Source of the DNA: Nostoc sp. GT001
GTDB lineage: Bacteria; Cyanobacteriota; Cyanobacteriia; Cyanobacteriales; Nostocaceae
Assembly: GCF_030382115.1 (NCBI RefSeq)
Contig: NZ_JAUDRJ010000003.1
Coordinates: forward strand, 3,611,729 to 3,629,956
Direction: 5' to 3'
Length of the DNA stretch: 18,228 nt
A program made the translations under genes and the position numbers. Positions within the stretch are counted from its first letter, which is position 1. The number at the start of each line of letters is the position of its first letter. Shown here one piece after another: positions 9,255 to 15,766 of this stretch. The notes beneath the pieces were generated by a model, which searched no databases, was not told where the DNA came from, and was given only the letters and a program-made list of their open reading frames with translations.

Positions 9255-9446
9255 GGAGTTAACAAAAGCATAGGAAAGAGAAACTATCCCTTGTACCCTA
9301 TAAACTATGCTGAAGTAACCTGTATACTTGTGGGTTTTTCCTGTTCATCCTTTGAAGCAGTTTACCGCCTGTGAAAAATTTTGATTACAATGCAGATGTC
9401 AACTAGGCGGCGTGCTGTCTATCCACGTAAATCCAGAAGATACTCA

Positions 9447-10493
9447 ATGAGTAATCAATTAAAAGACTACAATCCCAGCGGTGTAGGTGAAATAAATGGC
9501 AACCTCTTAGGTTTGCCCTGCGATTATGAGTCTGCAAACTTGATTGTCTTTGGTGTACCGTGGGAAGTAACTGTTTCCTATGGTGCTGGCACTGCTAATG
9601 GGCCACAGCGAATTCTAGATGCTTCGACTCAATTAGATTTGTTCGATTTTGATCACCCTGATGGCTGGAAGCAGGGAATTTTTATGGAAGAAATTCCCCA
9701 AGATATTTTAGAGAAGAACACATACTACCGCGCCTTGGCAGCAAAAATTATCGAACGATTAGCCCAAGGTAAACAACTCTCCGATACACCAGATTTAACA
9801 TCTGTGCTGACAGAAATTAATCAGGCTGGTCAACAGGTTAATCAATGGCTGTTTGAAAATTGTCAGGCAGCATTTAATAATGGCAAACGAGTTGCAGTCA
9901 TTGGTGGAGATCACAGTTCGCCTTTAGGTTATTTCCAAGCATTAGCAGCTAAATACCCAAACTATGGCATTTTGCATATTGATGCCCACGCAGATTTACG
10001 CGATGCTTATGAGGGATTTGAGTTTTCCCATGCGTCGATTATGTTTAATGCGATGAAAATACCGCAAATTTCTAAGTTAGTGCAGGTAGGTTTGCGTGAT
10101 ATTAGTCATGATGAAGTGCAAATGATTGACCAATCCGATAGTCGCATTATTGCTTATTACGACCCAGCTATTAAGCAAAAGCTTTACTCTGGCACAACTT
10201 GGATTGATTTATGCCGAGAAATTATTAGTCATTTACCTGAATATGTTTATATTAGCTTTGATGTAGATGGTTTAGATCCAAAACTCTGTCCGAGTACAGG
10301 TACTCCTGTTCCAGGTGGGTTGGAATTAGAGCAAACTTTTTGTCTTTTCCGAGAATTAGTCAATAGTGGAAGAAAAATTATTGGCTTTGATATCTGCGAA
10401 GTCGGTGATGCAGAGTGGGATGGTAATGTTGGAGCGCGGGTAGTTTACAAGTTGGCAAATTTGATGGATTTATCAAACAGAATTCAGGAGTAA
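9447..10493 (+). CDS. Ureohydrolase (arginase/agmatinase superfamily), candidate guanidine hydrolase
   Basis: A binuclear-metal hydrolase that releases urea from a guanidino compound. From ATG 9447 (348 aa, preceded by AGAAGA) the metal ligands are all visible: His156 in GGDHS, Asp179/His181/Asp183 in HIDAHADLR, and Asp272/Asp274 in SFDVDGLDP. The N-terminus has the block NPSGVGEINGNLLGLP followed by VPWEVTVSYGAGTANGP, and the C-terminus has AEWDGNVGAR with Trp324. As far as I recall, this pattern marks the branch of 'agmatinase family' proteins that includes Synechocystis Sll1077, shown to be a nickel-dependent guanidine hydrolase, and not the SpeB agmatinases. The frame is open upstream (TTG 9381, ATGs 9390 and 9396), which would add a basic 17-22-residue leader; I prefer 9447 because homology-like sequence starts there. 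No hypA/hypB nickel-loading genes and no guanidine riboswitch are evident in this window. Confidence 0.88.
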   Translation: MSNQLKDYNPSGVGEINGNLLGLPCDYESANLIVFGVPWEVTVSYGAGTANGPQRILDASTQLDLFDFDHPDGWKQGIFMEEIPQDILEKNTYYRALAAKIIERLAQGKQLSDTPDLTSVLTEINQAGQQVNQWLFENCQAAFNNGKRVAVIGGDHSSPLGYFQALAAKYPNYGILHIDAHADLRDAYEGFEFSHASIMFNAMKIPQISKLVQVGLRDISHDEVQMIDQSDSRIIAYYDPAIKQKLYSGTTWIDLCREIISHLPEYVYISFDVDGLDPKLCPSTGTPVPGGLELEQTFCLFRELVNSGRKIIGFDICEVGDAEWDGNVGARVVYKLANLMDLSNRIQE

Positions 10494-10986: not shown

Positions 10987-12132
10987 ATGAAAATCATGCG
11001 AAAAAACTACTTTAACACCAATCAAGGGCGAATTTTCACTGCTTTGATTTTGACGGGAATTTTATCTGTTGCTAGCGGTTTAATACTTGTCAAAGGTGCG
11101 ACGGGCGCTTCTGCGAACTTCTCTCTAGAAACAAGCAATGAAGTTCTCAAAGACAATATTAAACCAAACCGCTTGCCACGTCCAGTAGCTAATGCAGTAC
11201 TGCGAGACTTAGCGCGCAGACAGGGAATTTTTACTAGACAACTGCAAATTATTGACTACAATCAACAGACTTGGCGTAATGGTTGCTTGGAACTACCTCA
11301 AGCTGATGAATTCTGTACCCAAGCCTTAGTTCGTGGTTGGCGGGTTGTGGTATCTAATGGCAGAGAAAAGTGGGTTTATCATACCAATAATAATGGGCGA
11401 TCGCTACGTTTAGCTTCGGCAAATACTCCCTCAGAAAATCTGCCAGATAAATTACCTGCATCTGTAAAAAATGCTGTTCTACAAGCCGCATCCAGACGGT
11501 TGCAACAGCCAATTTCTCAGTTAACTATTATTGAGGCTCAACAGCAAACTTGGAGAGATAGCTGCTTAGAATTAGCTAATCCTGATGAATTCTGTACCCA
11601 AGCTTTGGTATCAGGCTGGCGGGTGGTTGTCGGTGGAGTTGGCCAAACCTTGGTTTATCATACTAATCAAACAGGTTCCACACTCAGGCTAAATCAAAAG
11701 GCTAACGAAAATACATTGAGCCCTGTGCAAATTCCAGCTAGTGAGTTACCACCACCGTTAGATCGAGATATAGTATTTCGCCAAATCTCCAGTGGGGGTT
11801 TTGCTGGCAGAACCTATGAGACTGTTTTACTCAAAGATGGGCGACTGATTCGCGTGCGGATTGGTGATGCTAATGATTCGGAACGTAGTGTTCGCCGTGT
11901 TTCTGTGCAACAGGTGCAACAATTTGTGCGATCGCTAAAACGTTCTCAGTTTAGTCAATTTCGGAATTTGAGTTACCCAGCCCCCAGTGGTGCTGCTGAC
12001 TATATCACCTATACGCTCACCAGCCAAGAAGGTACGGTTCAGTACAATGATATTTCTCAAAATAACCTGCCAAAGAATTTACAGACAGCAGTCAAAGCCT
12101 GGAATCAAATTGTAGCCAGCGCACAATCATAA
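10987..12132 (+). CDS. Secreted or membrane-anchored protein with a duplicated two-cysteine domain, function unknown
   Basis: I do not recognise a named family. The N-terminus has a basic start and a hydrophobic segment (about 16-38: IFTALILTGILSVASGLILV) ending at an ATGASA-like site, so it is exported or anchored. Two tandem copies of an about 80-residue module follow (63-142 and 156-235). Each has LP-x-(P/A)V-x-NAVL at the front and the core QTWR-x2-CLEL-x4-DEFCTQALV-x-GWRVVV, then VYHTN and LRL. The paired cysteines (100/110 and 193/203) are ten residues apart in both copies and could form disulfides. A different C-terminal domain (about 258-378) has TYETVLLKDGRLIRVRIGD and a helical end. 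The gene is monocistronic, with hairpins before it and a strong 13-bp hairpin 24 bp after the stop. A periplasmic role is likely. Confidence 0.85.
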   Translation: MKIMRKNYFNTNQGRIFTALILTGILSVASGLILVKGATGASANFSLETSNEVLKDNIKPNRLPRPVANAVLRDLARRQGIFTRQLQIIDYNQQTWRNGCLELPQADEFCTQALVRGWRVVVSNGREKWVYHTNNNGRSLRLASANTPSENLPDKLPASVKNAVLQAASRRLQQPISQLTIIEAQQQTWRDSCLELANPDEFCTQALVSGWRVVVGGVGQTLVYHTNQTGSTLRLNQKANENTLSPVQIPASELPPPLDRDIVFRQISSGGFAGRTYETVLLKDGRLIRVRIGDANDSERSVRRVSVQQVQQFVRSLKRSQFSQFRNLSYPAPSGAADYITYTLTSQEGTVQYNDISQNNLPKNLQTAVKAWNQIVASAQS

Positions 12133-12198: not shown

Positions 12199-12442
12199 CA
12201 AAGTGACGGGTTTCAAATTTCGTAGTGGCGATCGCACTATCTTGAAAAATGAACTTTCAAGATAGCGAAATTAATCAAAGGTGTTTACGGCAATTAATAT
12301 TAAATTGTAATCTTAACCTAATTCGCCGTTTTGTAAAACACCACATAGGATTAAAATTAAAGATAAAGGCAACTATTAAATATAAACTGCTCAAAAATCA
12401 ATATTATATTCAATTGTCAATCCTCCGAAAGAAGTATATTAA

Positions 12443-12588
12443 ACTTTCCCCCTTAAATTTGAACGCTTGGAACTGGATAATAATTTCTGCATCATAGATA
12501 CATCCGAGCAAGTACAACGGTTTGTAGAACGCCGCAAGCCAAGAAAACGAATCTGCTATCAAGTGCTTTAATCTCAGACAGAAATTAC
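12443..12588 (+). pseudogene. Probable eroded N-terminal remnant of the downstream cyclase gene
   Basis: One frame (12443-12568, stop TAA 12569-12571) reads FERLELDNNFCIIDTSEQVQ and then RFVERRKP, which looks like genuine protein. The cyclase frame, open from 12484 but without a start codon, reads NLLSSALISDRNY directly into Met1 of the cyclase. From memory, related cyanobacterial sensor proteins carry an N-terminal module of this kind (IDTS..VQRF) joined through a LLLSAL...NYI linker to the first PAS domain. The simplest reading is a deletion plus frameshift that removed most of the module. Upstream, 12199-12442 shows no clear coding relic; the 82-codon frame at 12249-12497 has no protein-like features. 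Confidence 0.45.
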
Positions 12589-14496
12589 ATGGAACAAGTA
12601 ATTACTTCAATGGCAGATGCTTTGTTAGTAACCAGTAATTCAGGAAAAATCAAAAAAGTCAATCGTGCTGCTCAACAATTATTTGGTTTTCGGGAAGAAG
12701 AATTAATTAATCAGCCGATATCACTGATAATTGATGATAATCAAATATTAACAAAAGCTATTTCTCAACATTCTTATTTGAAGCGAAGTTCACAGAATTT
12801 ACAAGTAGTTTGTCGAACAAAAACTAGAGAAAAGCTGTTGATTGCTTTTTCTTGCTCAGTGATTGCAAAAAAAACAGAAGGACTAGAAGATATTGTCTAC
12901 ATTGGTCGGGATATTACTGCTTGGCAACGCCGGGAACAGCGTACAAGTGCCCAGTATGCTATTACCCGTATCTTATCAGAATCACAGAGCGTAAGGCAGG
13001 TAATTCCACAAATTTTGCAGTCTATTTGTCAAAACTTGGGATGGGATTTAGGCGAACTTTGGACACCAAGTCAATATATTGGTACTTCACTACAAGGAGA
13101 TAGTCTCAATGCAGTACTAAGGTGTGTAGAAATTTGGTCAAGTCGATTAATTTCTGCGCGAGAGTTTAAGGCAATCACCTGGCAAGCTACCTATACACCC
13201 GGTGTTGGCTTACCTGGTAAAATTTGGATCAGACGTTTGCCTTTGTGGATTAAAGATATCACAGTAGATGGAGATAATAGGCGATCGCAACCTGCTGCTG
13301 AGGCTGGATTGCACGCAGCTTTTGGCTTCCCCATTTTAGACGATAGTGAAATCTTAGGAGTGATGGTTTTCTTTAGCCGGGACGTACAACCAAAAGATAA
13401 AGACCTATTACAAATGATGGGTTCTATTGGTAGCCAAATCTCTCAGTTTATCAAACGCAAACAAGCAGAAAATGCTCTTGTAGAAAGTGAAGAACGATAT
13501 CGAGATTTATTTGAAAATGCTAATGACTTGATTCAATGCGTCAATCCATCTGGTCGTTTTTTGTATGTCAATCGTGCATGGCGAGAAACTTTGGGATATA
13601 GTGAAGCTGAAATCGCAAATATGAGTGTTTTCGATATTATACATCCAGAGTTTAAGCAACACTGTTTGCAAAGGTTTTATCGTGTTTTATCAGGAGAAAA
13701 GCTTGGGCAAGTAACAGCCACATTCGTTACTAAAGACGGTCAAACAATCTTTCTAGAAGGTAATATTAATTGTAAATTTGTCGAAGGTCATCCAACTGCG
13801 ATTCGCGGCATTTTTCGCAATGTCACCCAACGACTAGCAGCAGAAGAAGCGTTGCGCCATCAGCAGGAAGAAACCGAACGTTTATTGCTGAATATTTTGC
13901 CAGCCGCAATTTCTAAAGAACTGAAAGAACAACCAGCTAGTATTGCCGAAGACTTTGCTGATGTCACAGTTTTATTTGCAGATATCGTTGGCTTGAGCGA
14001 AATTGCTACTTCTATAAGTGCAATTCAACTACTGAACCTACTCAACTCAATTTTCTCAGCTTTCGATCGCCTCACCGAACGATATAGTTTAGAGAGAATC
14101 AAGAACATTAACGATGCTTATATGGTGGTAGGCGGCTTACCTACACGTCGCCAAGATCATGCTCAAGCGATCGCTCTGATGGCACTGGATATGCAAACTG
14201 CGATCGCTCTATTTAATACTGAGAAGAACCAAAATTTCAGCATCCGTATCGGCATCCATAGTGGTTCGATAATGGGGGGAGTCATCGAGCTGAATAAGTT
14301 TACTTATGAACTCTATAAAGACACAGTAAACATCGCTCGCTCTATGGAATCCCAAGATGTTGCTGGTAAAATCCAAGTTACAGAAAATACTTATAAGTGT
14401 TTGTGTGATGAATTTGTATTTGAAAAACGAGGCGAAATTGAAGTTAAAGACAAAGGGAAGATAACAACTTATTTGTTGATTGGAAAGAAGGAATGA
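12589..14496 (+). CDS. PAS-GAF-PAS class III adenylate cyclase-like protein with altered catalytic site
   Basis: A cytosolic sensor protein of 635 aa. Domains: PAS (about 1-115, starting right at Met1), GAF (about 125-288), PAS/PAC (about 300-418), short coiled coil (416-445), class III cyclase (about 455-632). The cyclase keeps both metal aspartates (Asp465 in VLFADIVG; Asp509 in NINDAYMVVGGLP), the adenine-type Lys505 and Asn581. Several normally fixed residues differ. The G before the second Asp is Asn508. The purine-contacting Asp of Y-D-x-W-G is Glu574 in YELYKDTVN. The catalytic arginine of N-x-A-S-R-M is shifted: the sequence is NIARSMES, so Ser585 occupies the arginine position and Arg584 precedes it. 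If active it would be expected to make cAMP, but activity is doubtful. The start has no clear Shine-Dalgarno and follows an eroded coding remnant, so this may be a truncated gene in decay. Confidence 0.88.
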   Translation: MEQVITSMADALLVTSNSGKIKKVNRAAQQLFGFREEELINQPISLIIDDNQILTKAISQHSYLKRSSQNLQVVCRTKTREKLLIAFSCSVIAKKTEGLEDIVYIGRDITAWQRREQRTSAQYAITRILSESQSVRQVIPQILQSICQNLGWDLGELWTPSQYIGTSLQGDSLNAVLRCVEIWSSRLISAREFKAITWQATYTPGVGLPGKIWIRRLPLWIKDITVDGDNRRSQPAAEAGLHAAFGFPILDDSEILGVMVFFSRDVQPKDKDLLQMMGSIGSQISQFIKRKQAENALVESEERYRDLFENANDLIQCVNPSGRFLYVNRAWRETLGYSEAEIANMSVFDIIHPEFKQHCLQRFYRVLSGEKLGQVTATFVTKDGQTIFLEGNINCKFVEGHPTAIRGIFRNVTQRLAAEEALRHQQEETERLLLNILPAAISKELKEQPASIAEDFADVTVLFADIVGLSEIATSISAIQLLNLLNSIFSAFDRLTERYSLERIKNINDAYMVVGGLPTRRQDHAQAIALMALDMQTAIALFNTEKNQNFSIRIGIHSGSIMGGVIELNKFTYELYKDTVNIARSMESQDVAGKIQVTENTYKCLCDEFVFEKRGEIEVKDKGKITTYLLIGKKE

Positions 14497-14590: not shown

Positions 14591-15766
14591 TTAGTGAGTA
14601 TTCGGAATCATCCGACTCAAGGGATAAGTCGCTGTTTGCTGTGAAGCACTTTCAGCAACTGCTGCTGGAACTTGATCTGATGGTTGGGTTTTGGCTGCTA
14701 GATAGTCTTTTTGCAGTTTATCCAAAATGGCTTCTCGCCTGTCATATATACGCTTCAAGGGACGAGGTTGGCATTTGTTCAACACATACGCTGTCACCAG
14801 TGGTAGAGCGATCGTGCTATCGGTATAACAAACGATTGTGTTAGGTAACTCATCCGGGTCAATTTTACCCCAACTGACAGCTTCCGATGGGGTTGCTCCA
14901 GATAAACCGCCTGTATCTGGACGTGCATCGGTAAATTGCACAAAGTAATCGTGTCCTCGTTCTTCTAACCCTAAAACCTCGTGAAGTTGCGGTTGGGTTT
15001 GTAGCAAAAAGTTTTTAGGACTACCGCCACCAAGAATTACAGCCGCACTTTTACCTCCTGATTCACGGGCATTATATGCGATCGCTGCTGTCTCATTCAC
15101 GTCAATTGATGGATCGATCACCAACTGCGAACCTTCTAATGCTAAAGCCGCCACGTTCATCCCAATTGAGCTATCGCCTGGAGAAGACGTATAAATCGGT
15201 ACGCCATATTCATAAGCTGTAGCTAGCAAGCAGGAATGCTGCACACCCAATTGCTTTTCTATTTCTCGGACATATTTACCCAGTAAATGATGAAATTCAG
15301 CCGTTCCCATCCGCTTTTGAAACGCTTCTCCTTGGAGAATCTTGCGGATAAACGCATCAGTTTCTAGCAGCACATCGTAACCAAAAATAATGTCATAAAT
15401 GCGGATCGTGCCTTCTTGGCGAAGTTTCACATCATCCAAAAACGGATTACCAGCAAAGAGTTCAAAACCCAATCCGTAGTGCATATCGTGGTAAAGATTT
15501 GCACCAGTGCTAATCATCCAGTCAATAAAGCCGTTGCGAATTAAGGGTGCAAGCGCTGAAACCCCAAATCCTGCTGGCGTCATCGCACCGGAAAGGCTAA
15601 CTCCCACTGTGACACCTTCTGTTAGGACATCGCGACTCAGTAGTTGGCAGATTTCCCGCAACCGCGCTGAGTTGTAAGCGGTGAAGTATCGATCGATCAA
15701 ATCCACCACATTGATATCATTTGATATCGGTGTGGGTGCAATTTTTTGACCCAGCTGTTTAGACAT
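14591..15766 (-). CDS. speY: Deoxyhypusine synthase-like protein, probable homospermidine biosynthesis enzyme
   Basis: A 391-aa member of the deoxyhypusine synthase fold (NAD-dependent aminobutyl transfer from spermidine). Bacteria lack eIF5A, and bacterial members are associated with homospermidine formation from putrescine and spermidine. Visible blocks: [14 protein letters not shown] (55-68), [16 protein letters not shown] (85-100), [14 protein letters not shown] (193-206), [13 protein letters not shown] (244-256) with Lys251 at the position of the DHS active-site lysine, and [19 protein letters not shown] (278-296). The last about 35 residues are Ala/Gln-rich and look like a variable tail. 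The start at 15766 is supported by a GGGAG Shine-Dalgarno (15774-15778, 7-nt spacing). The gene is monocistronic, convergent with the cyclase gene. The symbol follows usage for cyanobacterial homologues; the precise product is inferred. Confidence 0.9.

Follow-up and report, generated by a model that had tools for sequence, protein, structure and literature searches.

What becomes of a sensor-coupled cyclase domain once its catalytic arginine is gone? The question is raised by a gene of Nostoc sp. GT001 that lies in the stretch analysed here (contig NZ_JAUDRJ010000003.1, positions 3,611,729 to 3,629,956 of the forward strand; 18,228 nucleotides, hereafter the window), and whose product joins a PAS-GAF-PAS sensor to a class III cyclase domain in which the canonical N-x-A-S-R-M motif reads NIARSM. 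We find that this domain is probably a pseudo-cyclase without activity that persists as a structural or signalling module, and that NIARSM came late in a loss of the catalytic arginine that is older and spans the clade. The gene and its domains, the latter from a domain scan, are placed as follows.

12589–14496, forward strand: PAS-GAF-PAS-cyclase protein, 635 amino acids (the open frame starts at 12484, and its first ATG is at 12589)
About residues 1–115, forward strand: first PAS domain, N-terminal to the GAF domain
12985–13452, forward strand: GAF domain PF13185, residues 133–288
13492–13830, forward strand: second PAS domain, about residues 302–414
13948–14481, forward strand: class III cyclase domain PF00211, residues 454–631 (182.7 bits)

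A cyclase domain with an incomplete active site

By homology and fold the C-terminal domain belongs to class III: PF00211 is found above its curated cut-off, and the predicted cyclase fold matches those of CyaB, Rv1625c, RhGC and CyaC. Over the whole protein the structure prediction has a mean predicted local distance difference test score (pLDDT) of 64.4, with the GAF region poorly modelled (pLDDT <50 at residues 149–234 and 240–309). Four stretches of the cyclase domain hold the active-site positions discussed here.

13981–13983, forward strand: first metal aspartate, Asp465 (kept in 97 of the 98 members of the arginine-less clade described below)
14101–14115, forward strand: Lys505, Asn508 (Gly in canonical members) and the second metal aspartate, Asp509 (Asn in 5 of those 98)
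14308–14319, forward strand: Glu574-Leu-Tyr576-Lys577, replacing D-L-W-G (alignment to relatives)
14329–14346, forward strand: NIARSM, with the ribose Asn581 kept, Arg584 at the usual serine and Ser585 at the position of the transition-state arginine

The codons AAC ATC GCT CGC TCT ATG at 14329–14346 encode N581-I-A-R584-S585-M, just as an earlier note on this DNA had read them, and the other residues that it named (D465, K505, N508, D509, E574, Y576, K577 and N581) are equally correct. NIARSM falls within a predicted helix, residues 573–588. The 'transition-state Arg' label and the roles of K505, D574 and K620 are ones that we take from general knowledge of the family. Compared with the canonical class III cyclases (PF00211; Rv1625c, CyaB of P. 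aeruginosa and CyaC of Spirulina), with which it shares family and fold, the GT001 domain has Ser for the transition-state arginine, Glu for the purine aspartate, YK for WG and Asn508 for Gly. Of what a competent homodimer carries, it retains the two metal aspartates (D465 and D509); the ribose asparagine is present (N581) but the residue four positions on is Ser585 instead of the transition-state arginine, and of the base-specifying Lys/Asp pair K505 is present while Asp574 has become Glu. In the CYG12 report, roles are given to two metal aspartates, to Asn599 and Arg603 (the ribose asparagine and transition-state arginine), and to Arg571 and Lys640 (PMC2576301).

The arginine is absent across a large Nostoc clade

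Our orthologue search used the sensor part only (residues 1–421) as query and was thus blind to the state of the cyclase domain. An orthologue was present in 44 of 53 same-genus genomes; these 44 loci and four outgroups were fetched and their frames read. The cyclase domain is retained in 39 of the 44. At residue 585 these have Cys (30), Tyr (4), Arg (4) or, in GT001 alone, Ser; at residue 584 they have Ser (29), Arg (4), Asn (3), His (2) or Tyr (1). All four outgroups have N-x-A-S-R-M. In these 39 domains D465 is invariant, the second metal aspartate is Asn in three, K505 is Arg in four and D574 is retained in 23. The comparison with other Nostoc orthologues that the earlier note had called for bears out the absence of Arg585 (35 of 39), and suggests that the arginine was replaced rather than shifted.

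Five of the 44 orthologues (G021, G013, G049, G012 and G051) do not extend past the second PAS domain and carry no cyclase domain; in four of these five the next gene lies 117–163 bases beyond the end of the frame. The domain-less relatives (L104, L106, L108, L109 and L111) consist of the sensor without the output domain, and their sensor is under strong purifying selection.

For a wider census we took the best 120 of 930 protein-database matches at E<=1e-60 and 45 loci with organism names from a genome collection, excluded L177 (34% identical) and added nine loci from the same-genus set; dropping duplicates and sequences with >150 sensor gaps reduced the resulting 173 sequences to 159. The census thus samples close relatives, not the whole family, and comprises 33 sequences with the arginine (the four outgroups included), 120 with another residue and 6 without the domain. 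The largest Arg-less clade has 98 tips, with local support of 0.928 on the full-length tree and 0.916 on that of the sensor alone; within it residue 585 changed 10 times on the full-length tree, 8 times to Tyr and twice to Ser, and no member returned to Arg585, a criterion by which the clade is itself defined. Further Arg-less lineages are one clade that includes Komarekiella sequences (EIAKYV and similar), another that includes sequences of N. linckia, N. carneum, Calothrix and Tolypothrix (K505Q, some with D509E), and single sequences (P0086, P0103 and L169). L170, which lacks the whole domain, is nested inside one of the other clades. Many relatives among the best 120 of the 930 matches carry the source name adenylate/guanylate cyclase, so cyclase counts made by annotation may include a dead one.

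One Arg-less group (L161, L162, L164–L166, L174, L176, P0105, P0112, P0114, P0115 and P0118) has Gln at K505 (His in L166) and Glu at D578. At D509, 8 of its 12 members have Glu and 4 Asp, and the group is apparently a separate degeneration.

An open-access literature search, which leaves most subscription papers uncovered, returned nothing that we recognised as dealing with this orthologue group.

The arginine was probably replaced before the neighbouring serine changed

Codons 584–585 are AGC CGC in the four Arg-bearing same-genus members, and mostly AGC TGC (14) or AGC TGT (6) in the Arg-less relatives; GT001 has CGC TCT. Because the GT001 codons lie only two single substitutions (A to C, G to C) from AGC TGT, the catalytic arginine most likely never moved: it would already have become Cys, and Arg584 would be the former serine. 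A-R-C intermediates occur in three same-genus genomes (G041, G044 and G017). The earlier note's 'catalytic arginine displaced by one position' is not supported by this comparison; the arginine had been replaced, most likely by Cys, in an ancestor of the GT001 lineage, and Arg584 reflects an independent change at the adjacent serine. Its companion suggestion of a dead enzyme or pseudo-cyclase fares better, and is likely for a homodimeric site with no transition-state arginine and a changed purine aspartate, even though the displacement attached to it finds no support.

A codon swap through a small rearrangement is unneeded, because six AGC TGT relatives (G020, G052, G018, G050, G060 and G022) differ from CGC TCT by two single substitutions. 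A sequencing error at NIARSM is excluded, because the motif recurs in two further database proteins, P0006 (named Nostoc sp. PCC 9305) and P0033 (named Nostoc sp. ChiSLP03a), and Arg585 is absent from 35 of 39 same-genus orthologues. In the census the motif occurs in 3 of 159 sequences (P0001, P0006 and P0033), with two origins on the trees, one for P0001 and one for P0006 with P0033; a single origin combined with tree error or recombination is quite possible.

The domain is under relaxed but purifying selection

We estimated omega with IQ-TREE codon models on fixed trees for 34 of the 35 Arg-less taxa, L110 (cut at a contig end) being excluded from these runs and from the stop forecast. Omega is 0.184 for the sensor, which is thus conserved, versus 0.445 for the cyclase domain, a value below 1 (2dlnL 122.6, kappa not having been re-optimised under the null). 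The Arg-bearing orthologues give 0.172 and 0.092, respectively, from only four close sequences with a tree length of 0.11. The genome's closest other cyclase domain, that of a canonical 437-amino-acid paralogue, has 0.082 over 17 genomes; in the nine genomes common to both sets, omega is 0.423 for the pseudo-cyclase domain versus 0.097 for the paralogue. Pairwise counts (594 of 595 pairs) point in the same direction with a smaller contrast, with medians of 0.32 for the cyclase domain and 0.21 for the sensor.

The frame of the domain is intact. Under neutrality at the fitted rates, 54 stop events would be expected in the 185-codon domain over the 34-tip tree, hitting 32.0 of 34 tips (minimum 24 in 2000 draws); the frames read from the 35 Arg-less genomes contain no stop in the cyclase domain, and since the loci were found through their sensor part, this is no product of search bias. 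Where the domain has been lost, the sensor has not decayed with it: sensor omega is 0.178 in the five domain-less proteins (2dlnL 178.8). An essential catalytic residue is absent from a domain that is under purifying selection, and it is in this sense that we call it a pseudoenzyme. To judge from its residues and their history, the GT001 domain has most likely ceased to form cyclic nucleotide as a homodimer, and something else would account for its retention.

We propose the following course of events. In the ancestor of the large Nostoc clade, one transition, CGC to TGC, would have turned the transition-state arginine into Cys, after which homodimer catalysis would have been lost or nearly lost. 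Transition-state and base-binding residues could then have drifted (for example Cys to Tyr or Ser, Ser584 to Arg, Asn or His, D574 to E or N, WG to YK or CK), and the domain would have kept its open frame and its fold by serving a purpose other than turnover, the simplest being that of a dimerising module at the C terminus that lets the sensor core signal or contact a partner. The close relatives form a graded series, from an intact site through an Arg-less but constrained domain to a sensor with no domain, in which one can ask what a sensor does after its output enzyme dies and whether a dead domain regulates a live paralogue.

Several observations weigh against an inactive but retained domain, or against so simple a history. 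The omega of 0.445, being an average, could hide a mixture of constrained and freely decaying lineages, and the 2dlnL values are somewhat too large because kappa was not re-optimised in the fits that set omega to 1. In the structural model, three low-confidence blocks (501–510, 561–570 and 571–580, with pLDDT of 63, 41 and 59) contain or adjoin active-site residues; the N-terminal region is also broken in GT001, and the whole gene may be eroding; and some class III cyclases function with unusual residues. As to the history, plain parsimony on the 159-sequence trees needs 5 changes, with one early Arg to Cys loss and two reversals to Arg, and a 48-sequence sensor-only IQ-TREE tree nests the Arg-bearing clade within Arg-less taxa (support 56), which would imply more than one loss or a reversal.

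A tree constrained to a single Arg-less clade equalled the best tree and hence could not discriminate. With reversals barred, the full-length tree implies 8 losses and the sensor tree 10; in each, 2 of these are losses of the whole domain, which leaves six to eight substitutions of the arginine among heterocystous relatives. Independent losses seem to us preferable to reversals, because the Arg-bearing same-genus proteins have otherwise canonical sites; this is a judgement.

Could the domain be half of an active enzyme?

The alternative that survives best, though we regard it as unlikely, is a C1-like half enzyme: the domain would keep the metal half of a site and pair with another cyclase chain supplying Asn, Arg, Lys and Asp, so that one site would work and the other be degenerate, as they are in mammalian C1/C2. 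A conceivable partner is the 437-amino-acid paralogue (G000:C3:7131195-7131845), which is 55% identical over the domain and, unlike the GT001 domain, has N-x-A-S-R-M in 17 of 17 genomes fetched; the corresponding arginine is present in the other 7 of the 8 PF00211 domains of the GT001 genome (motifs read by eye). The top PDB sequence matches are the C1 domains of AC8 and AC9, which like the GT001 domain keep the metal aspartates and lack the arginine (Lys in AC8 C1, Leu in AC9 C1). Mammalian C1, however, is fused to an Arg-supplying C2, whereas we saw no fused or neighbouring partner in the window, where no second cyclase domain is listed beside the GT001 gene.

Soluble guanylate cyclase (alpha/beta) resembles the GT001 protein in combining a sensor with a cyclase domain whose active site is partly missing, but differs from it in having an established partner subunit. 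Published accounts describe heteromeric cyclases with one site that lacks key residues (PMC3591389, PMC8815786), among them the second, pseudosymmetric site of soluble guanylate cyclase, which lacks key catalytic residues (PMC3591389). NeoR/RGC heterodimers fit less well as a precedent, because the RGC1 and RGC2 sites are reported complete (PMC8815786).

Residue retention points both ways. The metal side fares better than the transition-state side, as it does in mammalian C1 domains: D465 survives in 119 of the 120 Arg-less sequences, D509 in 107 (with Glu in 8 more) and R553 in 114, versus D574 in 63, K620 in 74 and R585 in none. N581 (109) and K505 (94), however, which belong to the other side, are also rather well conserved, and the 98-tip clade shows the same trend. 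The 98-tip clade retains I466 in 98, D465 in 97, R553 in 95, D509 in 93, N581 in 92 and K505 in 85, and more weakly K620 in 62, D574 in 59, G508 in 31 and R585 in none. Because the mean number of changes is 3.0 at D465, D509 and R553 and 3.4 over the 56 sites that are invariant in the 33 Arg-bearing sequences, metal-side sites are not specially guarded, and the five changes of D509 inside the clade disfavour a strict metal requirement. Of the 56 invariant sites, 35 are retained in >=95% of the clade. Most of the fold core is thus retained, constraint has eased on part of the transition-state and base side, and metal-side residues behave about as an average invariant site does.

Five relatives, moreover, lack the whole domain. 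We think it improbable that Nostocaceae have split a cyclase as animals have, with a free-standing C1-like subunit completing a single site with a separate Arg-bearing cyclase; were it so, the PAS-GAF-PAS sensor would control another cyclase allosterically.

Neutral decay and altered chemistry

A functionless cyclase domain, in the process of being lost as in the five domain-less relatives, we consider more doubtful still. Such decay is suggested by an omega that exceeds the canonical paralogue's some four- to fivefold, by the absence of the domain from five of nine sister-clade members and by the reduction of the N-terminal region in many Arg-less members. It is already disfavoured by the absence of stops from 35 Arg-less genomes when about 54 events are expected, and further by an omega below 1, by the retention of most fold-core sites and by observed gaps in the domain that are whole codons in open frames.

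Arg584 might instead replace Arg585 in a working enzyme of changed chemistry. It is found in 17 of 120 Arg-less relatives versus 0 of 33 Arg-bearing ones, having arisen 9–10 times on the trees and exclusively in Arg-less proteins. Arginine makes up 22–23% of weighted one-step amino-acid changes from AGC, the majority codon at 584, and is thus a common neighbour. The excess over the single-base expectation is weak by event counting (binomial p 0.03–0.11): 6 of 15 departures from Ser584 go to Arg (p 0.11, or 0.08 with base-frequency weights), and 6 of 12 one-step departures (p 0.04 or 0.03). No Ser584 to Gly change is among the observed departures, as one might expect in a helix, which explains part of the excess; compensation by Arg584 is a hint at most. 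With 103 of 120 Arg-less relatives lacking Arg584, position 584 variable among close relatives, and base-binding and triphosphate positions changed too, a working enzyme is very improbable.

N-terminal erosion and gene neighbourhood

The longer relatives have about 150 extra N-terminal residues of MKDQVLD type (for example P0082, an Arg-bearing orthologue named Desmonostoc muscorum LEGE 12446, 782 amino acids), a region in which the two that were scanned have no Pfam best stretch. Two pieces of it are recognisable upstream of and into the GT001 gene.

12401–12529, forward strand (L068:3313-3441): remnant of the N-terminal region of longer relatives, in another frame than the open reading frame (ORF)
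12535–12648, forward strand (L068:3447-3560): second N-terminal piece, in frame and running into the ORF

The stretch between these two pieces was not found in the window. In 20 of 44 orthologues an open frame of >=156 residues precedes the aligned Met1; these are 11 of the 35 Arg-less, all 4 Arg-bearing and all 5 domain-less ones (judged by open frame and not by start codon; G053 begins near a contig end).

Elsewhere in the window, which has no Rfam family at gathering score over its 18,228 nucleotides, an ORF of 119 amino acids at 1488–1847 has no Pfam match and, by its cysteine pattern, presumably resembles a fragment of an insertion-sequence transposase. A 381-amino-acid protein encoded at 10987–12132, also without a Pfam match, lies upstream of the orthologue in several relatives too. 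In 38 of 44 loci the orthologue has a deoxyhypusine-synthase-like gene downstream; no match was found at L078, L079, L084, L085, L099 and L111, of which L084, L085 and L099 end soon after the orthologue. In GT001 the sensor locus is flanked by an arginase-family gene (9381–10493) and a deoxyhypusine-synthase-family gene (14591–15766), neighbours that we take as a hint of polyamine metabolism.
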